Origin: Prevotella sp. | GTDB lineage: Bacteria > Bacteroidota > Bacteroidia > Bacteroidales > Bacteroidaceae | DNA: 26,793 nucleotides | Direction of reading: 5' to 3' | Assembly (NCBI GenBank): GCA_021204735.1 | Contig: JAJPYV010000120.1 | Location: 1-26,793 of the forward strand | Part shown: piece by piece, positions 15,375 to 26,793 of the stretch | How positions within the stretch are numbered: position 1 is the stretch's first letter | How the letters are laid out: each line of letters starts with the position of its first letter | Position numbers and translations under genes: made by a program | The notes under the pieces: model-generated | Seen by the model: the letters and a program-made list of their open reading frames with translations, nothing else | Databases searched by the model: none | What the model was told of the DNA's origin: nothing

Positions 15375-18300
15375 TTAGTTTTTCTTAATATACTTATATC
15401 CGTTGACTACATATATTCCTGCAGGTAATTTGTCGTAATCCTTTGCAGGACAAACGTATGCACCCATTACGGTGTAAACGTGGTCGGTCTTCAATAATTG
15501 TTTACTTGTAGGTACGCTCTCAATGAAAGTAGAGCCGTCTGAGAGGTAAGTCTCTTTTGCTACACCCTCGACAGTATTGAGGTCTTTCGTAAGACGGATG
15601 TCCTCACTTGAAGCAGCGAGTTCAAGAGTTACGGTACCGTTGCCGACCTGGAAATTATGGTCAGTCTCTGTATAGTAAGCAAGTTGCTCATAGCTTACAG
15701 GAATAGTTATTGTCTTTGTCTCACCGGCAGCAAGTTCAACACGTGAGAAGCCGACCAACTTGTGGCGCATGTTACCGTTGTCACCATAGTTGATGTTGCC
15801 GTTGAAGTTAGCATACAACTGAACGATTTCAGCACCGTCAACACTGCCAGTGTTTGTTATGTTTGCCGTAACATTTATCGTTTGTTCAGGATTAATCGTG
15901 CTTGAACTGAGGTTCATGTCAGAGTAGTCGTATGTAGTGTAGGAAATACCATAACCGAATGGATACATAGGTTTGTCAGCCTGGCACGGGTTATATTCAC
16001 CTTTGCCGTAATACATATATGTATAGCCCCATTTGTCGATGTTGTATTCCAACAAGCCTTTATTCCCTAATTTTGTATAGTTGGCTGCGGTAGTAGTCTC
16101 CGAAGGAAGCTCCTCGATGTTGTTGTACCATGTTGAGGTGAGTTTTCCAGATGGGTTGATGTCCCCAAATAGGGCATCGCTGATAGCCTGACCCTGAGCC
16201 TGACCGCCGTACCAAGCCTCCATAATAGCCGGGATATTCTCCTTCTCCCATGTGATGTCAAGTGATGAGCCGCTTACGAGCACGAGAACGATGTTCTTGT
16301 TCACCTCATACATTGCCTGCAAAACCTCCTCCTGGTTGCCAGGGAGTTTGAGGATCCAACGGTCAGCACCTTCCGTACCAGTAGCGTGGTCATCAGGTTT
16401 GCTGTAGTCAGTACCGCCGAGGAATACAACAACATCAGCCTTTTCAGCTACTGCTACAGCACGCTCTATCATAGCGTCATCAGCCACATCGTTTACTGCT
16501 GATGTCGTTGTGCAAACATAGAGAGGTCCCTGTGTCTCCACATTAGGTATCTGTGGATAGTCAGGATTTGTGAAGTGGTAATACAGATAGTTGCCTACAT
16601 ACGAATTAGAGCCTGAGAATTCCACATATAAGTCATGTACGCCACAAACTATTTCAGGGTCAATTTCTGCTGTGATAATTGTCCAAGTTGTCCATCCTCC
16701 CGTATTTACGTTATCCAGACTGAGGAAAGGCTCATTGTCCTTGTCATCAAGAATGAAACTTATTGTTCCTAAACCAGTATCTTTAGATCCACAAGACATT
16801 TCAAATTGCGTACAGCCATGCTCACCGAAGTCAACATCCTTATACAGGAAGATATCGCCAGGTGCTGTATTCTCGAGATTTCCGTTACCCTGGTCGTTTT
16901 TCGCTGCACCACGCTTTGACACTACAGCCTCATCAAACGGAACGGCAGAAATCTCGCCCGTGCGGTGAGTCTCAAGTTCAAAGTTCATTTTCGTGCTGAA
17001 TGCCTCGTAAGGGGTGGTGGTATAAGTAGGAGTACCACTGTAATCACCGAGCATTATGGCATCAGCGTAAGTACCAACGAGAGCAATTTTCTTGTCAGCA
17101 GAGAGAGGAAGAAGCGGACTGTCGCTGCCTTCAGGAGCATCGTTCTTCATAAGTGTTATACTCTGTTGTGCAGCTTTGAGAGCCAATGCCTGGTTTGCCT
17201 CACTCTCAAGAGTGTTGTTGACAGGATATACGTAGTTGTCAAACTCACCCAAAGCGAAACGGGTTGCGAGCACCCTTACTACTGCGGTATCAACGTCAGC
17301 TTCTGTCAGGTCAATGTAAGTCTGTCCGTTAGGGCATGCCGTCTCTGTTGCCTGATAATCAGGGTCTGTGGCATGAATACCAGCCCTCTGCATTACAGAT
17401 GAGCGACTGCTGTACTCACAGTTGGTGTCGCAACCAGCCTTGATAGCAAGGGAAGTTGAGCGGGCCTCCATTATCTGTTCTTTTTCAGTAGAATTTTGGT
17501 ATGGATCATGTATAGAACTGAATGATACACCATCATCGATAGTCCCAGTGGTGTAGTCTCCGAAATACAGGTGCTTTGTCGCACGGTGTATGCAACTAAG
17601 TCCGGCACAGTCGGATGTTACATAGCCACTGAAGCCCCAGTCGTGACGGAGGATATCAGTGAGCAGCATTTTGTTGCCGGCACATGGCAGACCACCATGA
17701 ACTTTATTGCTGCTATACTTGCCCATGTTGTTAGCATCTTTCTCATCATCATCATTAGAGAATGCATTGTATGCAGCCATTACGCTTTTCACGTCAGCCT
17801 GGCGCACGCACATCTCGAATGCCGGGAGATAGTACTCACGCATATTCTTCTCTGAAACGTATGATGTAGACGACTGTCTGCCCTGCTCATAGTTGTTGGC
17901 AGCGAAGTGTTTTGCACAAGCCACCAATTTATAATAAGGTGTAGTCTCGTTAATCTCACCCTGAAAACCTTTTACAAACTGTACTGCAAGAGTTCCCGTA
18001 AGGAATGGATCTTCACCGTAGTTTTCTTCCTCACGTCCCCAGCGTGGGTCACGTGCCATGTTGATTGTCGGTGCCCAATAGTTCAATCCCTTGCCTGAGT
18101 TGATGTGGTATATACGTGCCTCATCAGAGATGGCGGTTGCACACTCATATATTAGTTCTGGGTTCCATGTAGCAGACATTCCTTTTGACTCTGGAAAACT
18201 TGTGGCAGCACCTGAACGTGCTACGCCGTGCAATGCCTCATTCCAATACTGGTAAGATGGCAGAATAGTAACACCGTCACGCTTTATATCCTCACTGACG

Positions 18301-18470
18301 TTGTTTCCCAATTGGTCAACTTTCTCACGGAGAGTTAATTCCTTACAGAGCAGTTGAGCTCTCTCATAAAAACTTAATGACGTGTCAAGCCAAGGATATT
18401 TGTCCAAGTCTTGTGCCATGACAAACATTGCCATGAACGACAATGTAAATGTGATTAATATACGCTTCAT
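15375..18470 (-). CDS. Secreted GH3 beta-glycosidase with internal CBM6-like domain
   Basis: 1031-residue glycoside hydrolase of family 3, probably a beta-xylosidase or beta-glucosidase acting on oligosaccharides from plant cell wall. A signal peptide ends around MAQ (residue 20). The N-terminal barrel has YQYWNEALHGVAR (73-85), DPRWGR (141-146) and KHF (187-189), with the catalytic nucleophile Asp287 in YVTSDCAGL. The second domain begins near LALKAAQQSITLMKN. An insert at about 540-635 ends in TGGWTTWTIITAEI and has the look of a CBM6 carbohydrate-binding module. The C-terminal Fn3-like domain (about 855-960) is followed by a short tail with YTVMGAY and LPAGIYVVNG, like a type IX sorting domain. 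An AraC-family gene lies just upstream, with paired half-sites between them. Xylosidase activity is inferred from similarity. Confidence 0.9.
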   Translation of the reverse strand: MKRILITFTLSFMAMFVMAQDLDKYPWLDTSLSFYERAQLLCKELTLREKVDQLGNNVSEDIKRDGVTILPSYQYWNEALHGVARSGAATSFPESKGMSATWNPELIYECATAISDEARIYHINSGKGLNYWAPTINMARDPRWGREEENYGEDPFLTGTLAVQFVKGFQGEINETTPYYKLVACAKHFAANNYEQGRQSSTSYVSEKNMREYYLPAFEMCVRQADVKSVMAAYNAFSNDDDEKDANNMGKYSSNKVHGGLPCAGNKMLLTDILRHDWGFSGYVTSDCAGLSCIHRATKHLYFGDYTTGTIDDGVSFSSIHDPYQNSTEKEQIMEARSTSLAIKAGCDTNCEYSSRSSVMQRAGIHATDPDYQATETACPNGQTYIDLTEADVDTAVVRVLATRFALGEFDNYVYPVNNTLESEANQALALKAAQQSITLMKNDAPEGSDSPLLPLSADKKIALVGTYADAIMLGDYSGTPTYTTTPYEAFSTKMNFELETHRTGEISAVPFDEAVVSKRGAAKNDQGNGNLENTAPGDIFLYKDVDFGEHGCTQFEMSCGSKDTGLGTISFILDDKDNEPFLSLDNVNTGGWTTWTIITAEIDPEIVCGVHDLYVEFSGSNSYVGNYLYYHFTNPDYPQIPNVETQGPLYVCTTTSAVNDVADDAMIERAVAVAEKADVVVFLGGTDYSKPDDHATGTEGADRWILKLPGNQEEVLQAMYEVNKNIVLVLVSGSSLDITWEKENIPAIMEAWYGGQAQGQAISDALFGDINPSGKLTSTWYNNIEELPSETTTAANYTKLGNKGLLEYNIDKWGYTYMYYGKGEYNPCQADKPMYPFGYGISYTTYDYSDMNLSSSTINPEQTINVTANITNTGSVDGAEIVQLYANFNGNINYGDNGNMRHKLVGFSRVELAAGETKTITIPVSYEQLAYYTETDHNFQVGNGTVTLELAASSEDIRLTKDLNTVEGVAKETYLSDGSTFIESVPTSKQLLKTDHVYTVMGAYVCPAKDYDKLPAGIYVVNGYKYIKKN

Positions 18471-18514: not shown

Positions 18515-18522
18515 CAAAGTTA
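18515..18522 (-). promoter_or_regulatory. -7 box of the GH3 promoter
   Basis: TAACTTTG on the minus strand. No -33 box is recognisable 19-21 bases upstream, as expected for a promoter that needs an activator. The leader would be about 38 bases. Confidence 0.55.
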
Positions 18523-18563: not shown

Positions 18564-18596
18564 GTAATTTGTGCTCTATTTACCGCAATTTGTGTT
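18564..18596 (-). promoter_or_regulatory. Paired half-sites upstream of GH3, candidate AraC-type operator
   Basis: Written on the + strand: GTAATTTGTGCT (18564-18575), 9 bases, GCAATTTGTGTT (18585-18596). The two half-sites are direct repeats at 21 bp and the near edge is 42 bp from the -7 box. The same arrangement occurs at the pectinesterase promoter (23585-23617). An overlapping inverted repeat GTAAATAG/CTATTTAC (18556-18583) is also present here but not there. Confidence 0.65.
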
Positions 18597-18627
18597 TTTA
18601 GCTTTCGTGTTAGTTTCCGGTTCTTTC

Positions 18628-19542
18628 TTATTTTTTATTTTGCGCAAAGCGCATTTCTCTAAACTTGCTTGGCGACATTCCTGTATGTTTTTTGAACATT
18701 CTACTGAAATAGTGGGGGTATTGAAAACCAAGTTCAAATGCTATTTCGTTTATAGTCTTATTTTCATTAGCAATCATTTCTTTTGCTACGTCAATCATTT
18801 TTGATTGAATGATTACCTGTGCAGTACTTCCCGTCTCTTTTTTTATCAAGTCACCGAAATAATTTGGAGACAGGTGCAATTTGTCGGCAAAATAATTTAC
18901 AGTCGGCAAGCCATCCCTTTGTAAAGGGAGAGAATAGAACCATTTGTCCAACAAATAGTAGAAGTTTGCTACTATATGTGTATTAGTCTTATGTCGTGTA
19001 GCGTATTGACGTTCGTAAAAGCGAACGCAGTAATCTAAAAGAATGCCAATATTTTCAGTTATAAGAGTTTGTGTATATTTGTCGATGGTGTGTGTTATTT
19101 CATATTTGATGTGTTGTAGTATTTCGAGAATAAATGTCCGTTCTTCTTCTTTCAAGATCAATGCTTCGTTTATTTCGTATTCAAAGAAACGATATTGTTT
19201 AATTTTTTTTGCTAATGGTGTTCCAATCAATATGTCTGGATGAAACGCCAATGCTCTTCCTATGGGCTTTAACTTTTCTCGTTTGTGTATTTCGAATATT
19301 TCGCCTGGAGCAACGAAATTCATTGTCCCTACACCAAAATTGTAAGTTTGGTTTCCATAAAGCATTGTTCCACCGTCAATCATTGTGAGAGATATGAAAT
19401 AGAACCCAGTACGCATACGCCAATTGTCAACAGGGTAGTCGGATTTTTCCAAATCGAATACACTGACTAACGGATGTAAAGTTTCTACTCCCTTCCATTT
19501 GTTGAAGTCGGAAATGGTGGGCATATCCAATATCTCAATCAT
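18628..19542 (-). CDS. AraC-family transcriptional regulator
   Basis: 304-residue cytoplasmic one-component regulator. Residues 1-190 form a ligand-sensing part with a cupin-like N-terminal section (FYFISLTMIDGG, GVGTMNFVAPGEIFEI). Residues 205-300 are the two helix-turn-helix DNA-binding domain: first helix pair around YFADKLHLSPNYFGDLIKK (217-235), second TINEIAFELGFQYPHYFSRM (263-282), ending with the family box HTGMSPSKFRE. It lies between the GH3 and pectinesterase genes, all in the same direction, and both enzyme promoters carry the same 21-bp-spaced direct half-sites, so it is the likely activator of both. The inducer is unknown; a pectin- or xylan-derived sugar is a guess. Confidence 0.9.
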   Translation of the reverse strand: MIEILDMPTISDFNKWKGVETLHPLVSVFDLEKSDYPVDNWRMRTGFYFISLTMIDGGTMLYGNQTYNFGVGTMNFVAPGEIFEIHKREKLKPIGRALAFHPDILIGTPLAKKIKQYRFFEYEINEALILKEEERTFILEILQHIKYEITHTIDKYTQTLITENIGILLDYCVRFYERQYATRHKTNTHIVANFYYLLDKWFYSLPLQRDGLPTVNYFADKLHLSPNYFGDLIKKETGSTAQVIIQSKMIDVAKEMIANENKTINEIAFELGFQYPHYFSRMFKKHTGMSPSKFREMRFAQNKK

Positions 19543-19560
19543 AAGCTATGTTTTCCCCTA

Positions 19561-19568
19561 CAAAGTTA
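19561..19568 (-). promoter_or_regulatory. -7 box of the AraC-family gene
   Basis: TAACTTTG on the minus strand, predicting a start near 19554 and a leader of about 12 bases. No clear -33 box, and none of the paired half-sites seen at the enzyme genes. Confidence 0.45.
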
Positions 19569-19572
19569 ACAA

Positions 19573-19660
19573 AAAATTTTCATTCTTCATTCTTCATTTT
19601 TCATTTTCCTCAAGCAATCTTGAATTCCCTCCCTATGGGGGGGGAGGTTAGGGTGGGGCT
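19573..19660. repeat. Partial dispersed repeat (copy C) with G8 tract
   Basis: TTCTTCAT and TTTTTCAT units lead into CTCAAGCAATCTTGAATT (two mismatches to copies A and B), as in the other copies. The stem-loop part is missing; instead comes CCCTCCCTAT, then eight G residues at 19637-19644 and a G-rich run to 19658. It lies between the pectinesterase terminator and the AraC promoter. Confidence 0.5.
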
Positions 19661-19668
19661 CTTATTTG

Positions 19669-19704
19669 AAAAAATCCTTTCCCACTTTGCAGCAGGAAAG
19701 GATT
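19669..19704 (-). terminator. Terminator of the pectinesterase gene
   Basis: On the minus strand AATCCTTTCC (19704-19695), 12-base loop, GGAAAGGATT (19682-19673) and then four more T residues. It lies 47 bases after the pectinesterase stop, so the AraC gene is transcribed separately. Confidence 0.82.
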
Positions 19705-19750
19705 CATAGAAACAAATCGTACTATATAAATCTACTAAGACATTGATTCG

Positions 19751-22700
19751 TTATTTGATAATCTTAGTAGCAATTTGCTTGCCATCGCTCATCGTATTAA
19801 CTTTGATTACTACACCCTTGTAAGTGCTGCTTACGCGTGCGCCTTGGAGGTTGTAATAAGAAGTGCGGAGGATATCACCGTTAGCAACATCATCAATCTC
19901 CTTGATACCTGTAGCTATTTCAGCTACAGTAGCCTCACCAAGACCACCCATTTCGTTGGCTGCACGTACTGAATATGTTGCACTTGTATCGTCAACAATG
20001 TAGCTGTTATCAATTGTGAAGTCAACTACAACATCGTCCTTGCAGATAGCCCAGCAGAGAACATAATCACTGTTGTCCCATGCAAGTTCGTTGCCAGCGA
20101 TTGTAACATTTGTAGGAGCTGATGCCTGCTCTGTTGCATCTGTAGGATCCCAGTCATCTTCGTCTCCCAAAACTGTTTCAATAGTGTACAGTTCAGCCTC
20201 CTCAGCTGTGAGGATTGGGTCGTTGTAATAACCATCACCAAACGTTGTCTTACGACCGCTAAGGTCGATAACTGTTCCCGTTGAAGTCATTGAGTTGTAC
20301 TCTGCGAAGCGTGCCGGCCAGCCACCGCTCATCTCACTCCAACCATCAGCTGAAGGAATGACATTCATCGTAGTGTTGATATAGAGAGCAATAGGAGTAC
20401 CTGAGCCCCAAGGACGACCGAGAGTATAGCCGTTAGTGCTGCCCTCATCACTGATAGTACAATCTCTGAAGATATAACCATACTTCTTTGGTTGTGAAGG
20501 AACTGCTATATAACCACCAGAAGTGCACATTACGAGGTCAACGGCATTATAGAATACATCACCCTTACCGCAGAGGAAGTCTGTACGTCCACGCAACTTA
20601 CCACCTTCGAAGTAGAATTTACCAGAACTGTTGTTTGACAGGTAAGTATCCTGATAACCATAGAGACATACGTTCATGCAGATAGTTCTGTTCGACTGGT
20701 CTTGCAGAGCTGCGCCACGACCTGATGCATCCAAGAGACCGTTCTTAATCGTGATGTCCTGGAAGTAAGTATTTGTAGCATTGCTTGATAAGTTGAATGT
20801 CTCGCAATTGTTCAAGCCTTCAATCGGGTTGGAGCCTGTATTTAAATTATCAGGTACGGTATTTACTATGGAAGTTAAATCTCTTTCCTCACCGATGATT
20901 GATAAGTTAGGAGAACTGATGTTTGTTATAGGACTTGGATAAGCTATACCGTCAGAGCCTGTTATTGTAGCAGTTTCGGAAGCTGGTATTACATAATCAC
21001 CTTGTTTAACGAAGATACGGTAACGAACTGAGTTGTCTTCACGTGCAGCAGCAGCTGTGAATGCCTCTGTTATTGTACCATCATCAGGAACGATGAAGTC
21101 GTACAGTTTCTTCGTAACAGTCGGCTTCGTCTTTGTTGTGAAGTTGATTACGATATCGTCTTCTATAGCGTTGTCAGTAAGGTCAGAAATGCTGTTGCCT
21201 GGCAATGTGAATGTGTAATCAGTTGCATATTCCAGACCCTTATAAGTGAACATCACAGTCTTACCGGAAACAGTAGGAGTAAGCTCCATATCGCCAAGGG
21301 TTGCTGTAACATCATCGCTTGTTACCTTTACTTTCTCGTCGAATGTAAGAACTATCTTACCGTTTGCAGATGCTGTTGTTGCACCTTCCTCTGGAACTGA
21401 TGATACCAATTCAGGAGCTGTACCATCGTCAACGAGTTGCTCTGTACCGGTTATATAGATTTCGGCAATTGCAATACCGTCGTTGTCAGAAGTAGTTCCA
21501 AGAATATCGGATTCCCTATCAGGATACCAACGGATAGACAATTCTGAAGCATTGTTTGCATCTTCTGGAACATCAAATTCACTGTCCGTCCAGGCTTTCG
21601 TTCCTGTAATCTCCACTGTACCGATGGTTTCCCATGTTTCCTCATCGAGAGAATATTGTACATTATATACAGTATAAGAGTTGTAGTTAAGGAGCATAGA
21701 AGAGGAAACCTTTATGTCGGTGAATGCGGCTGCATTTACCTTAGTCTGCCAATAATAGTCTCCTAATCCTGTTGTTCTCCAGTTAACAGCTGCTGGCTTG
21801 CCTTCATAGCCGCCTGCACTTTCTTCGCTCTTGTCAAGCCAACTTGTTGTTGTGCCATCATCAGTACGCAAAACGAGTGCGTCTGCATCGTTGTCTTCTG
21901 CATAGAAGTCAGCTACACGTCCGCTATTACCTGACTTGTAGAAGTCCCAACCTGCTATGAAGTCTATTGCTGAATAGTTTGCGCCAATAGTTTGGTCTTG
22001 ATCCATTGTTACTGAAGTTGAGGCCGATGTCTCACCATTGCTCCAATTTGCGAATGTCAAGATCTTGTTGGAAGATGCGGTCAAAGTAACTGTAGTTCCC
22101 TCCTCATACATATTCTTGTCGTCAATGACGGTAGCCTCTGGCTCAAGTGAAATCATATAGTCTTGAGCACCTGATTCATCCATCTCTATTGTGAGAGCGT
22201 ATGTTGGGATAGTTGTGTAGTTAGCAATGATAGTCTGGTCTTTGTCCATTGTAATAACACATGACTCGTCAGAAGATATTTCATTTCCTTCCTCGTCTGT
22301 CCAGTTAACAAACTTATATCCGAAGTTACGTGTCTGTGAAAGAGTTACTTCATCACCATCATCGAAGATAGTTCCGTTAGGTGTGTTCTTAACGGTACCT
22401 GCGTCCTCTGGTAATACGCTCAATGTAAGGGTGTATTCATCAACATCTTCCAAAGTACCCTCCAACTTACCAGTTATCACGATATTAGCCAAACCAACTT
22501 GTTTGCTGTCTCCTAAACTGTAGAGGTTTAGATGTAAACTGCAAGCTCCTGTTGAACCAGCTGCATCTGTAATATCGTATGAATAGTGAGATGTTTCAGT
22601 GTTGTTGTTACGGTTTGGAGTTTGACCTGTATCCAAAGTGGTTATATTGCCTTCAGAATCTTTCCAAGCAATATCCAGCATACCACCATCAGTACCATCA

Positions 22701-23473
22701 CGCTCTGCGTCAAATGAAACGTTTGTCGGTGTGAATGTCAGACCAGTTTTCGGAACAATTGTAAAGTCAATGCCATTTGTAGCATCGTCTGCACCAGATG
22801 CCTGAACTGTAGGTTGTATCTCAGTGTACATTATACTGTTGACCTCTTTAGCTCTAAGGATATAAATTTCGCTTCCTAATGATACATAGCTTGTCTTGAA
22901 ATAACTGCTCATGTTATCAGGGCTGTATGTTGCAGTCTGTCCCTCTGTTCCCTCGTCAAATGGCCATGTTGCTGTAACATCTGAGTTTACCGTTGCACTT
23001 GCCTCAGGAACGAACTCAACCTGAATAGCGTAAATGTAAGATCCTTGTGAGATAATTTCGGCGTAGCCTTGATTAGCATCATCCTTGCTTGCAGTATATG
23101 TAGCTACGTTATCAACAAATTCAGCCTGTACGCCACCGATAGTGCACTCAAACCAGTCAGGATAACGTGTAATTGTAATAATATCACCCTTTTCCTTTAT
23201 AGGAACCTGAATTATAGTGTTCTCATTACATTGAACGTTGTTACCGTTGTTCACAAATTTTCCGTTATTGGTGCAGTCGATATACAACTGGACACCATCC
23301 ACGTCAGAGTCAATGTAGCCTGTAGAGCCTTCATAGAAGGTTGCTGCACTTTGAATGCCTTCAGGGATGTTGTTTTGGAAATCCCATTTAGCCACAGTGT
23401 TGTCTGCCCAGGCAAGGCAGGCAACGAATGACAAGAGGAATAGTAAACATCCTTTCAAAAATAGCCTTTTCAT
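19751..23473 (-). CDS. Secreted multidomain pectinesterase (CE8)
   Basis: 1240-residue secreted enzyme that removes methyl esters from pectin. The signal peptide ends near residue 24. Three similar beta-rich modules open with AKWDF (28), ATWPF (168) and AGWDF (507), probably carbohydrate-binding or adhesion modules. Two InlB-type repeats (about 345-420 and 424-500) each end in MDxDQTIxANY. A Big_5/SbsA-type Ig domain is at about 684-780. The CE8 beta-helix (about 788-1105) has all catalytic positions: Gln924 (AALQ), Gln941-Asp942 (GYQDTYL), Asp965 (GRTDFLCG) and Arg1020 (LGRPW). The usual DFIFG motif reads DFLCG. Residues 1200-1240 (YYNLQGARV, ending ATKIIK) look like a type IX sorting domain. 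The promoter has a -7 box and the same paired half-sites as GH3. Confidence 0.92.
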   Translation of the reverse strand: MKRLFLKGCLLFLLSFVACLAWADNTVAKWDFQNNIPEGIQSAATFYEGSTGYIDSDVDGVQLYIDCTNNGKFVNNGNNVQCNENTIIQVPIKEKGDIITITRYPDWFECTIGGVQAEFVDNVATYTASKDDANQGYAEIISQGSYIYAIQVEFVPEASATVNSDVTATWPFDEGTEGQTATYSPDNMSSYFKTSYVSLGSEIYILRAKEVNSIMYTEIQPTVQASGADDATNGIDFTIVPKTGLTFTPTNVSFDAERDGTDGGMLDIAWKDSEGNITTLDTGQTPNRNNNTETSHYSYDITDAAGSTGACSLHLNLYSLGDSKQVGLANIVITGKLEGTLEDVDEYTLTLSVLPEDAGTVKNTPNGTIFDDGDEVTLSQTRNFGYKFVNWTDEEGNEISSDESCVITMDKDQTIIANYTTIPTYALTIEMDESGAQDYMISLEPEATVIDDKNMYEEGTTVTLTASSNKILTFANWSNGETSASTSVTMDQDQTIGANYSAIDFIAGWDFYKSGNSGRVADFYAEDNDADALVLRTDDGTTTSWLDKSEESAGGYEGKPAAVNWRTTGLGDYYWQTKVNAAAFTDIKVSSSMLLNYNSYTVYNVQYSLDEETWETIGTVEITGTKAWTDSEFDVPEDANNASELSIRWYPDRESDILGTTSDNDGIAIAEIYITGTEQLVDDGTAPELVSSVPEEGATTASANGKIVLTFDEKVKVTSDDVTATLGDMELTPTVSGKTVMFTYKGLEYATDYTFTLPGNSISDLTDNAIEDDIVINFTTKTKPTVTKKLYDFIVPDDGTITEAFTAAAAREDNSVRYRIFVKQGDYVIPASETATITGSDGIAYPSPITNISSPNLSIIGEERDLTSIVNTVPDNLNTGSNPIEGLNNCETFNLSSNATNTYFQDITIKNGLLDASGRGAALQDQSNRTICMNVCLYGYQDTYLSNNSSGKFYFEGGKLRGRTDFLCGKGDVFYNAVDLVMCTSGGYIAVPSQPKKYGYIFRDCTISDEGSTNGYTLGRPWGSGTPIALYINTTMNVIPSADGWSEMSGGWPARFAEYNSMTSTGTVIDLSGRKTTFGDGYYNDPILTAEEAELYTIETVLGDEDDWDPTDATEQASAPTNVTIAGNELAWDNSDYVLCWAICKDDVVVDFTIDNSYIVDDTSATYSVRAANEMGGLGEATVAEIATGIKEIDDVANGDILRTSYYNLQGARVSSTYKGVVIKVNTMSDGKQIATKIIK

Positions 23474-23524
23474 TTTGTGATTAGTTTTAATATTAATAAT
23501 TGATAAATCTGAATTTTTAGTTTA

Positions 23525-23532
23525 CAAAACTA
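23525..23532 (-). promoter_or_regulatory. -7 box of the pectinesterase promoter
   Basis: TAGTTTTG on the minus strand, leader about 45 bases. No -33 box at the normal spacing, as at the GH3 promoter. Confidence 0.5.
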
Positions 23533-23584
23533 CAAAAAAATTGAATATTTCGGTTTTACCCCTCCCATTAAAATTATATTTTCA

Positions 23585-23617
23585 GTAATTTGTGCTATGT
23601 TTTCTGCAATCTGTGCT
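23585..23617 (-). promoter_or_regulatory. Paired half-sites upstream of pectinesterase, candidate AraC-type operator
   Basis: Written on the + strand: GTAATTTGTGCT (23585-23596), 9 bases, GCAATCTGTGCT (23606-23617). The first half-site is identical over 12 bases to the one at GH3, the gap is the same, and the second differs by one base in its first ten. The near edge is 53 bp from the -7 box, 11 bp more than at GH3. Confidence 0.65.
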
Positions 23618-23707: not shown

Positions 23708-26700
23708 TTAATTTTCAAGCATTGAATGTAGCATTGTGGGAATATAGACATCTTTACGTTCTCGTTGGAAATAGACATGATGCTCACTGAATATGTCAAG
23801 AATTTCATTATCCGTAAGAGGATTGTTCTTAAATTCAGTCCAATGCCTGACATCCCGTAATGGGGTATTGGAAATGATATAACTATTGAGGAAAATATCC
23901 TCATCATCAAGAGATTTCTCAATATCTTTTATATTTTTATAAAGTTCAATTTTGCTGTCAGAGAATTGCTTCAAATGCGTTATACCTTTCGGATCCACGA
24001 AAGCGACATATTGCTGTTTGTAGGCAATAAACCACAGTATAAAATCAGGATAAAACCCCGAAGCATCAAAGAAGCCGATACCTTGCTTGCTCTTGTTTCT
24101 CAGCAAATAAAGTTCCTTACATTTCATAAACTCTTTCCCTTTATCTGACCTTATAAAGTTATCAATATCCCTCAAAAATTCCATTTCTCCCTCATTCAAC
24201 GGAACAGGACAAATCTTAACCAAACTTTCGTTATTCTCGATAAACGTTGTATCTCTGCGATTGATATACATTAGCGGCTGATATAGATGACCTAAAATAT
24301 AGAGCGCATCAAAGTTATGACCAGATCCAATCTGCATAGACTCACGAAATTTTTTGTCGTTAAGTTCATCCTTGAGCCGCAGCAGATTATCACGGAAAGC
24401 TGACAGGTTCTTGTGAATTAGTATCTGATATTCCTCCTCAAAATTCGGATTCGAGTAATCAATATAATCAATTTCCACGTGTTCGCACATCCATTTGCTC
24501 CGTCTGTTGTTATACACCTTTTCTGTATATGCTTTCAGCAGTATTGTTACGATACTCTGCCACAGGTCAACACATTTTTTATAATTGGTAAACTCCATAG
24601 CATGGGCAGGAATGGCAAGCTCATACCACGAGCATGAATTACAAATTATCTTCTTCAATTCCTTCGCAGAAATATTCATATTAAACCAAGCCCTGTCGTT
24701 CTTGAAGTCAATAAGGTCAAAATACACCTTGTTCCAGTTGATAAACGAAAGGTGCTTCTCCGTGAATTTTGCCGTGTTTACCGTAGCCCCAGCGTCGTCC
24801 AAGCCTTTCAGAGAGCCCATTGCCTGTATTTTAGCATATACGTCCAAAGAGACTGGCTGAGTTCTATTAAGCATGTCCTCTTTTATGTCAACTGTAACCT
24901 CTTTCTTGAAATCAAGACCATCTTTCACTTTCAAGCATTTCAATTTTGTCTTGCCCAAGTCAACCACAGGAAGAATAGGCAGGATTATCTCCTCGTAATC
25001 GTTGTCGTTGGAGGGTAGTCCCATGTCCTCAAGAATACTCTTGAATTCATCCATATAATTGGCTCTTACACCGAATATATTTAGCGTCTCCAAGGTTTGC
25101 AGATATTTCGGCTTTGATGTCGGCTGCAAGGAAGTGTCCAATGCCGATGACCGTTTTAGCGACATCTTATAGCCTTTAAGACGCACGCCACGACCGAACA
25201 ACTGAATAATCTGACTGCCTTCGGAGCGACCAACATTCATCAATCCCATTGTGGAGACACGCCACGATGACCAGCCTTCAGTGAATTTCTTTGAACCTAT
25301 AAGAATATTGATGTTGCTGTCTTGACGATTGATAGACTCAAACAGCGATTTGTCGGTGTAGTCCTTTGACATGGCACTGATGCCCTCTGCCGCACACATA
25401 GAGGTAAGTTTTGCAGAATCACCTACATTGATAACACCGAAATATTCGCCGTTACCAATACGCATGCCTATCTCACCATCAAGTCCACGAAGGTTGTCAA
25501 GGTGCAGGATAGCACCGGATATTGAGCAATGAAACACTGTATTCAGCAAATCATCATATATCTGTTCAAGGGAAATATCTTTAAATTTATAGCTGCGCAA
25601 GTATTTGAATGAGCGGGTAAAAATCGGATTATTGTTCTTGTTTACCAATCCGTCAGTACCACTAAGCAGGTTTTTAACATTTCGTATGGATTCAGAAGAT
25701 TCCTTTATAAATTTCTGGAAAAATTTCAGAATAGTAATAACATCACTGTTCTCTCTATTGTTAGAAGCATCTGTGGCGGTTACGGAACTGCCCACGAAGA
25801 TGGCAAGAGGCCGCTCGATATTGAATTTATGCAGTTCAGCACCTGTGTCGATGTACAGTCGCAGTTGCTCATAATAATTAAGCAGGCACGCAGTGAGATA
25901 AGTATGCAGTTGATTGTCATCCCACATATTTGCCATATTCAAAATCTGATAGTCCTTGCCATAGCCATCATTATAGAAATAACTGTATGAGTAATCAAAA
26001 AGCGTGGCTTTAGCATATTCCTCCAACATCTCCTTTCTCTTGCTCTGTGAATTTACAGAGTTGATGGCCTGTCCGAAAGTAGCGGAATATTCAAAAGCGA
26101 AACCATCGGTACTCAATTGGTCACGGTAGTTTTTCCATTTGTCGCCAGAAGAACCGCGATGCCCCTCGTCAACCAACACGAGGTTGTTGCCCTCAAACGA
26201 CTCCACAGCCACCGTTTTGTCGCCATCAGTGTCAGCGAGTTTGGTAATTTCAATTATGTCAATGCCCATATTGCCGAACAGTCCTGAAGCCTGCGACTTG
26301 TTGAACTGATGAGCATCGATGTTGCTTAGCTGGAACTCCTCGATATGCTGGTTTGTGAGACCCTCGTTAGGCGTGATGAGGATTGTTCTGTTCAACTTCT
26401 TGCTCGCACGTGAAGAATAGTGCTGAAACTGCAGGATATTTACGTGCATCAGCAACGTTTTGCCAGAGCCTGTCGCACTCCAAAAAGCTAACTTGTTCAA
26501 ATCATCCTCTGTAAATTCGGGTATTTCATGGTTGGTGAGTGGGTCGTTATTAAAGACAAATGTGTGATAGTTATGGATATCCTCCAATAGTTTTTCCTTG
26601 TTCGTAAAATACTTATCTAAATAAATCTCTGTGAAAAGCAGGGAGAGATACTGGAAATATTTCCACTTTATCTCCTTATCACGGTTTTTGTTTATTTCCT

Positions 26701-26793
26701 GAGTATGCCTGTAAATGTTATGGTCGTATTCCAACAGTATTTGCTCTGTGATTTCATTCCCTAAATACAATCGTAACTTCAATAGTTCAACCA
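23708..26793 (-). CDS. Type III restriction (Res)-like helicase-nuclease, 5' end outside window
   Basis: At least 1028 residues, open to the window edge, so the real start lies beyond it; the TTG at 26782 is not needed as a start. The N-terminal part is a superfamily 2 ATPase: Walker A ATGSGKT, DEGHR (motif II), SAT (motif III), then FTEGWSSWR and QLFGRGVRLKG (motifs V-VI). Near the C-terminus FYPDF and, 18 residues later, VDPKG give the PD-(D/E)xK nuclease pattern of type III Res subunits. Residue numbers from the TTG are 103-109, 205-209, 233-235, 911-914 and 929-933. No methyltransferase is visible within the window; the Mod gene would be expected just upstream of the window edge. If none exists there, a stand-alone defence helicase-nuclease is an alternative. 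Confidence 0.82.
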   Translation of the reverse strand, partial: VELLKLRLYLGNEITEQILLEYDHNIYRHTQEINKNRDKEIKWKYFQYLSLLFTEIYLDKYFTNKEKLLEDIHNYHTFVFNNDPLTNHEIPEFTEDDLNKLAFWSATGSGKTLLMHVNILQFQHYSSRASKKLNRTILITPNEGLTNQHIEEFQLSNIDAHQFNKSQASGLFGNMGIDIIEITKLADTDGDKTVAVESFEGNNLVLVDEGHRGSSGDKWKNYRDQLSTDGFAFEYSATFGQAINSVNSQSKRKEMLEEYAKATLFDYSYSYFYNDGYGKDYQILNMANMWDDNQLHTYLTACLLNYYEQLRLYIDTGAELHKFNIERPLAIFVGSSVTATDASNNRENSDVITILKFFQKFIKESSESIRNVKNLLSGTDGLVNKNNNPIFTRSFKYLRSYKFKDISLEQIYDDLLNTVFHCSISGAILHLDNLRGLDGEIGMRIGNGEYFGVINVGDSAKLTSMCAAEGISAMSKDYTDKSLFESINRQDSNINILIGSKKFTEGWSSWRVSTMGLMNVGRSEGSQIIQLFGRGVRLKGYKMSLKRSSALDTSLQPTSKPKYLQTLETLNIFGVRANYMDEFKSILEDMGLPSNDNDYEEIILPILPVVDLGKTKLKCLKVKDGLDFKKEVTVDIKEDMLNRTQPVSLDVYAKIQAMGSLKGLDDAGATVNTAKFTEKHLSFINWNKVYFDLIDFKNDRAWFNMNISAKELKKIICNSCSWYELAIPAHAMEFTNYKKCVDLWQSIVTILLKAYTEKVYNNRRSKWMCEHVEIDYIDYSNPNFEEEYQILIHKNLSAFRDNLLRLKDELNDKKFRESMQIGSGHNFDALYILGHLYQPLMYINRRDTTFIENNESLVKICPVPLNEGEMEFLRDIDNFIRSDKGKEFMKCKELYLLRNKSKQGIGFFDASGFYPDFILWFIAYKQQYVAFVDPKGITHLKQFSDSKIELYKNIKDIEKSLDDEDIFLNSYIISNTPLRDVRHWTEFKNNPLTDNEILDIFSEHHVYFQRERKDVYIPTMLHSMLEN

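Follow-up and report, generated by a model that had tools for sequence, protein, structure and literature searches.

Introduction

What switches on a pectinesterase gene and a GH3 glycosidase gene that stand on either side of an AraC-family regulator gene in a Prevotella species? The three genes (in the order pectinesterase, AraC, GH3) run in the same direction on the minus strand of contig JAJPYV010000120.1 of assembly GCA_021204735.1, and the whole stretch analysed, 26,793 nucleotides long, is called the window here. A first-pass annotation of this DNA had placed the AraC-type gene between both enzyme genes, as we also find, and had proposed that one AraC protein acts on a pair of matching operators at their promoters. 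We consider it quite probable that this protein does bind both sites and activate the pectinesterase and the GH3 enzyme.

Polysaccharide enzymes in gut and rumen Bacteroidota are mostly ascribed to hybrid two-component systems (HTCS) and SusR-like regulators. A regulon that can be tested directly follows from a one-component AraC regulator whose operator is defined and stands at a phased distance from the -7 box, and an operator common to its subfamily makes it possible to identify the targets of many AraC genes in Bacteroidota that are as yet uncharacterised. A passage of PMC9723621 describes direct-repeat binding as confined to few regulators, mostly of the AraC family. Among the papers listed in literature searches, judged by titles and abstract openings, none dealt with this regulator or operator.

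Results

The two half-sites of the operator are direct repeats with a period of 21 base pairs (bp) at both promoters, as first annotated. Their exact pattern matches twice in the window, both times on the minus strand, in agreement with the two sites originally reported, and in none of 100 dinucleotide shuffles. The exact letters span 31 bp (18564-18594 and 23585-23615); the 33-bp span given earlier is the footprint of the motif that was later learned from AraC relatives. A scan of the whole source assembly (G000; 2.74 Mb in 438 contigs, 81% complete), which the annotation had proposed as a check, found the 20-position pattern exact only at both window sites; allowing up to three mismatches added five places, against three for a reversed-pattern control. 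The exact 12-mer AGCACAAATTAC is similarly rare, occurring twice in this assembly and once in a sister genome (G067), all three times at GH3 or pectinesterase promoters. Further members of the regulon may be absent from the assembly because it is incomplete.

Both promoters have a -7 box without a -33 box, as annotated: in neither promoter can a TTTG be seen in the region some 20-24 bp upstream of the -7 box. Part of the text of PMC7366714 reports TAnnTTTG as the -7 consensus for the primary sigma factor of Bacteroides. The distances from site to -7 box, annotated as 42 and 53 bp, were each one base too many and measure 41 and 52 bp. They differ by about one helical turn, which bears out the idea that both sites lie on the same face of the helix.

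A protein bound at these positions could instead repress, or act as a dual regulator looping between operators some 5 kb apart, since AraC-family members are able to repress by looping. We think this very unlikely here, as the sites stand upstream of the -7 boxes without overlapping them and the lack of a visible -33 box is what is expected where an activator is needed.

The signal that ties the sites to the AraC protein emerged only once a motif was learned from the protein's relatives. Using the window half-site itself as the query, with up to five mismatches in 30 AraC loci, gave 11 matches (three in the window's own locus, L008) versus 8.6 in shuffles, and this approach was dropped. The motif was trained on the 200 bp upstream of the relatives' own genes, the window excluded, with a two-block direct-repeat model for each period from 13 to 30. 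Two of 49 AraC loci (L068 and L070) were set aside at the outset. From the 47 others, 14 were dropped because a coding gene reached the start, three of the remaining 33 as near-duplicates, and L012 because its upstream region runs off its contig, leaving 29 for training.

Period 21 gave a log-likelihood of 170.5 in these 29 relatives, compared with at most 73.3 at the 17 other periods. The learned half-site is TACCcaaaTTAC, and its 3' part, CAAATTAC, is common to the window half-sites. Twenty of the 29 relatives carry a site of at least 13 bits within 200 bp before their own gene. In leave-one-out tests 19 kept such a site, 23 beat all 20 shuffles and 22 beat ten other periods. Seven of the 20 AraC loci outside the training set also have a site of at least 13 bits, three of these seven being near-duplicates of training loci. 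Sites of at least 15 bits number 30 in 272 kb of AraC loci and none in 338 kb of GH3 and pectinesterase loci from the same genus, and at other periods (15 to 28) the AraC loci yield at most three. Applied to the 53,522 positions of the window, this relatives-only model gave the GH3 site the top rank (15.8 bits) and put the pectinesterase site in third place (11.2 bits).

The strongest point of the case is the spacing to the -7 box, which played no part in motif fitting. The 49 AraC loci, near-duplicates included, hold 33 sites of at least 13 bits. On the direct side of these, -7 boxes stand at 40-42 bp 15 times, and once each at 21, 31, 75 and 76 bp; on the inverted side all 17 of the -7 boxes within 90 bp stand at exactly 23 bp. 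By chance, 0.06 would be expected within a 4-bp range and 0.015 at a single position. Restricted to the 29 training loci (24 sites), the counts are 13 at 40-42 bp on the direct side and, on the inverted side, 12 of 12 at 23 bp. The GH3 site, with its -7 box on the direct side at 41 bp, fits this subfamily pattern. None of 60 shuffled windows contained a site of at least 11 bits with a direct-side -7 box at 30-32, 40-43 or 50-53 bp, while the real window contains two, and score and phase together are more telling than score alone.

In six loci (L017, L025, L128, L190, L191 and L192) a single operator is flanked by two divergent promoters, whose -7 boxes stand 41-42 bp away on one side and 23 bp away on the other, so that both promoters may be served by it. 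Both Aquirufa species have a second operator (L064, 11150; L065, 11151), only a few bases ahead of the start of another AraC-like gene of the same kind, named by eye.

The annotation had also suggested aligning orthologous promoters from related species, and in the nearest one the half-site was retained. The GH3 protein of the sister genome is 94% identical to that of the window. In the promoter of its gene the promoter-proximal half-site is retained, 51 bp from the -7 box; the distal half falls outside the contig, which starts 129 bp ahead of the matching start codon. A run of 13 identical bases (GAGCACAAATTAC) crosses this half-site and the rest of the spacer has diverged, with third codon positions of the GH3 genes 67% identical. 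The distances of 41, 51 and 52 bp in the window and the sister genome differ by about one helical turn. The sister pectinesterase (72% identical) is truncated at its start, and only 101 bp of contig follow the stop, so that a second site and an AraC gene, if present, would lie outside it.

That the two window promoters resemble each other by chance, or through recent duplication of a promoter fragment with no regulatory role, seems most improbable. There are only two copies in an incomplete assembly, and their scores under the relatives' motif are within reach of shuffled sequence. The similarity between the two promoters, however, peaks at the half-sites while spacers and flanks differ, both sites are phased to their -7 boxes, and the sister genome preserves the half-site.

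A search for a genus-wide regulon with the window's letters found none. Allowing at most one mismatch across 398 genomes of the genus gave 28 places in 21 genomes, versus 13 for the reversed control. Thirteen of the 28 lie inside reading frames, seven are in one genome (G046, several with repeats such as CACAAATTACAAAT) and two are the window's own; the remaining six are intergenic, in six other genomes (L038, L040, L042, L049, L050 and L056). The one-mismatch copy at L038 (1501-1531) stands between an aldo/keto-reductase-like and an AraC-like gene, both named by eye, 32 bp before a -7 box, and scores 11.1 bits.

The promoters of GH3 orthologues raise the question of whether an HTCS controls both sites and the neighbouring AraC gene is unrelated to them. 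HTCS operators are given in a portion of PMC3878776 as direct repeats with an average period of 21 bp, and elsewhere in the genus the promoters of GH3 orthologues contain direct repeats of 20-22 bp, several of which are C-rich (e.g. TTTCCACC/TTTCCCCC). The source assembly has one HTH_18 match in a 1432-amino-acid open frame, which is HTCS-like in size only. In the examples examined, however, the C-rich repeats stop some 14-22 bp short of the -7 box, whereas the half-site core CAAATTAC and the 41-bp distance agree with AraC subfamily operators. As the window sites differ from the C-rich repeats in letters and position and match the AraC subfamily in both, control by an HTCS is possible but unlikely.

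Usable GH3 promoters, with a -7 box and enough sequence, came from 25 of 30 loci, the window's own included, and usable pectinesterase promoters from 17 of 30. At period 21, nine of the 25 GH3 promoters, again counting the window's, had at least eight of nine matching letters (mean 0.3 and maximum three in shuffles), and not all of these were C-rich. GH3 orthologues in related species may stand under different kinds of operator. Upstream of the GH3 genes in L099-L126, 20-22-bp direct repeats are frequent near the -7 box and resemble HTCS sites.

The AraC protein itself matches HTH_18 (E-value 2e-20; 73.3 bits against a cut-off of 33.6) and HTH_AraC (7.8e-14, also above the Pfam cut-off). Its NCBIfam matches cover the C-terminal half and fall far below the cut-offs. 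Sequence and profile searches gave the N-terminal domain no name and no Pfam hit; comparison of structures did provide a match. The AlphaFold2 model, built from 33 aligned sequences, has a mean predicted local distance difference test score (pLDDT) of 85.9 and a predicted template modelling score (pTM) of 0.79, and predicts strands, long helices and then two helix-turn-helix motifs. With Foldseek the N-terminal part matched the regulatory domain of RhaR (5u93_B, E 1.6e-7, template modelling (TM) score 0.75 by target length), that of AraC (TM-score up to 0.69; 2arc_A, E 8.8e-6) and that of the lactose sensor BgaR (TM-score up to 0.62), at about 8-13% identity. In the predicted model it thus belongs with the N-terminal regulatory/dimerisation domains of AraC type, and it is likely to be an AraC-type small-molecule sensor. 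Full-length ToxT and Rns came top by E-value with low TM-scores; as these also match by fold, the fold is no proof of a sugar ligand.

The first recognition helix is like that of the relatives. The second has H277 and Y278 where 46 of 49 relatives have Q and 47 have H, respectively; outside the window protein, H277 occurs once (L013) and Y278 in the outgroup pair L068 and L070 alone. Most relatives have TA (78% and 95%) in the 5' part of the half-site, where the window has AA or AG. These residues and the altered 5' part fit a shift in specificity without proving it.

Five HTH_18 matches were found in the source assembly, of which only the window AraC belongs to the subfamily at E<=1e-20. Elsewhere in the genus the best near-full-length identity to it is 48% (in 150 genomes, and also in 398 genomes, 16 of these above a threshold of E<=1e-85), and shorter fragments of the DNA-binding part reach 56% in the 150 genomes. 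Relatives at 49-50% identity occur in another family of the order and at 45-46% in Aquirufa. Ten chosen neighbours of the relatives' genes proved by Pfam to be two aldo/keto reductases, an FMN reductase, a flavodoxin, a carboxymuconolactone decarboxylase, a cyclophilin-like protein, an alpha/beta hydrolase, a DUF6282 protein, an aminotransferase and one protein without a match. A FastTree tree made a recent origin of the window AraC from redox regulators less likely, as the protein branches there beside all members but the two outgroup sequences. The window protein is on a deep branch, and its probable control of cell-wall enzymes may be new or old in the subfamily.

Discussion

It seems probable that a single AraC protein acts at both promoters, as first annotated, because subfamily operators bear the signature of 21-bp direct repeats 40-42 bp from a -7 box and the window AraC is the only subfamily member found in the source assembly. 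This much of the original proposal is supported; that the protein binds there and co-activates both genes is what we infer from it. The protein would bind, probably as a dimer, to two half-sites two helical turns apart upstream of both its neighbours. The sites end one helical turn apart relative to their -7 boxes and on the same face. The bound protein would help the primary sigma factor to work at promoters with a -7 box and no -33 box, and the pectinesterase and GH3 glycosidase would be switched on together. The signal is probably a small molecule released when plant cell walls are broken down, which the N-terminal domain would sense.

Several results weigh against this picture. Among 200 Markov-shuffled windows, four reach 15.8 bits and 109 reach 11.2, so the score by itself is not decisive, and the GH3 gene itself contains a third window site (12.6 bits), with a TAnnTTTG at 36 bp. 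The pectinesterase site stands one turn further out than the GH3 site, at a distance absent from the relatives' sites. The AraC gene's own upstream region, from the pectinesterase stop to the AraC start, scores 0.4 bits at best; the missing operator counts because 20 of the 29 relatives carry one, while the other nine have no 13-bit site in the stretch scanned. The sister genome (63% complete) gave no AraC match at E<=1e-20.

Lack of conservation in relatives that keep these genes, which the annotation had named as refuting the proposal, is partly seen: beyond the sister genome, the operator was not found at more distant GH3 orthologues. The other 28 GH3 loci, some cut by contig ends, have no site of at least 15 bits. 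All 58 GH3 and pectinesterase loci together have three sites of at least 13 bits and 13 at 11 bits, none of them phased at 40-43 or 23 bp. The absence from distant GH3 orthologues is paralleled by the absence, in the 398 genomes of the genus searched, of any near-full-length AraC relative above 48% identity.

The chances are evenly balanced, in our view, that an undescribed AraC subfamily of Bacteroidota shares one asymmetric operator grammar. The same 33-bp direct repeat would drive one promoter with its -7 box at 40-42 bp on one side and another with its -7 box at exactly 23 bp on the opposite side, with the bound dimer touching polymerase in two different ways, and whole-turn shifts (31, 41, 51-52) would be tolerated on the first side. 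In the window this grammar would serve cell-wall enzyme genes where other species use HTCS-like sites, and H277/Y278 would have changed in step with the half-site, whose 5' part went from TA to AA or AG.

The system has features in common with several known ones. HTCS regulons of Bacteroides, as outlined in one section of PMC3878776, share an AraC-type DNA-binding domain, direct repeats of about 21 bp and control of polysaccharide-degrading enzymes. In contrast, the 304-residue window protein has neither sensor kinase nor receiver, only HTH_18 and HTH_AraC being found, and so falls outside the HTCS; its half-site is CACARATTRC, and its sites lie 41-52 bp from the -7 box. AraC, RhaR, RhaS and BgaR share with it a C-terminal HTH_18, a direct-repeat operator and local targets, and the predicted N-terminal domain matches those of RhaR, AraC and BgaR, although sequence identity there is low. 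YqhC of E. coli is reportedly an AraC-type regulator of the reductases YqhD and DkgA. The likeness to YqhC, which has no sequence comparison behind it, is that some neighbours of the window protein's relatives are reductases or flavoproteins; the neighbours of the window gene are, in contrast, cell-wall polysaccharide enzymes.

Features of the locus

The coordinates are collected in Table 1. For the GH3 protein the nearest named model is xylan beta-xylosidase, with a score under that model's cut-off, and its best relative of solved structure by sequence is a beta-xylosidase.

Table 1. Genes, -7 boxes and operators of the pectinesterase-AraC-GH3 locus, in window positions
Feature	Position	Strand	Basis or remark
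Pectinesterase, 1240 aa, InlB-like repeat and Big_5 domains	19751..23473	-	Pfam
AraC-family one-component regulator, 304 aa	18628..19542	-	Pfam HTH_18, HTH_AraC
GH3 glycosidase, 1031 aa, CBM6 and Fn3-like domains	15375..18470	-	Pfam
-7 box TAACTTTG of GH3 gene	18515..18522	-	41 bp from operator; TAnnTTTG consensus
-7 box TAGTTTTG of pectinesterase gene	23525..23532	-	52 bp from operator
-7 box TAACTTTG of AraC gene itself	19561..19568	-	TAnnTTTG consensus
Operator, GH3 promoter: AACACAAATTGC-N9-AGCACAAATTAC	18564..18596	-	half-sites 18585-18596, 18564-18575
Operator, pectinesterase promoter: AGCACAGATTGC-N9-AGCACAAATTAC	23585..23617	-	half-sites 23606-23617, 23585-23596

The source assembly has a second pectinesterase (C30:60-3353), 63% identical to that of the window, which is cut near the contig start, with its promoter outside the contig. 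In another genome (L113; G192:C6:31712-34780 and 35030-38434) a pectinesterase relative (41%) and a GH3 orthologue (62%) are direct neighbours, and the roughly 250 bp that separate them are too few to hold an AraC gene.

The gap between the pectinesterase and AraC genes (19569-19750) holds a possible terminator, GGGAAAGGATTTTTT, an inverted C-rich/G-rich stretch, CCTCCCCCCCCATAGGGAGG, and GAATGAA repeats, and may be a repetitive intergenic element. Near the end of the window a ResIII/SWI2-like helicase gene (23708-26782, minus strand) adjoins the pectinesterase.

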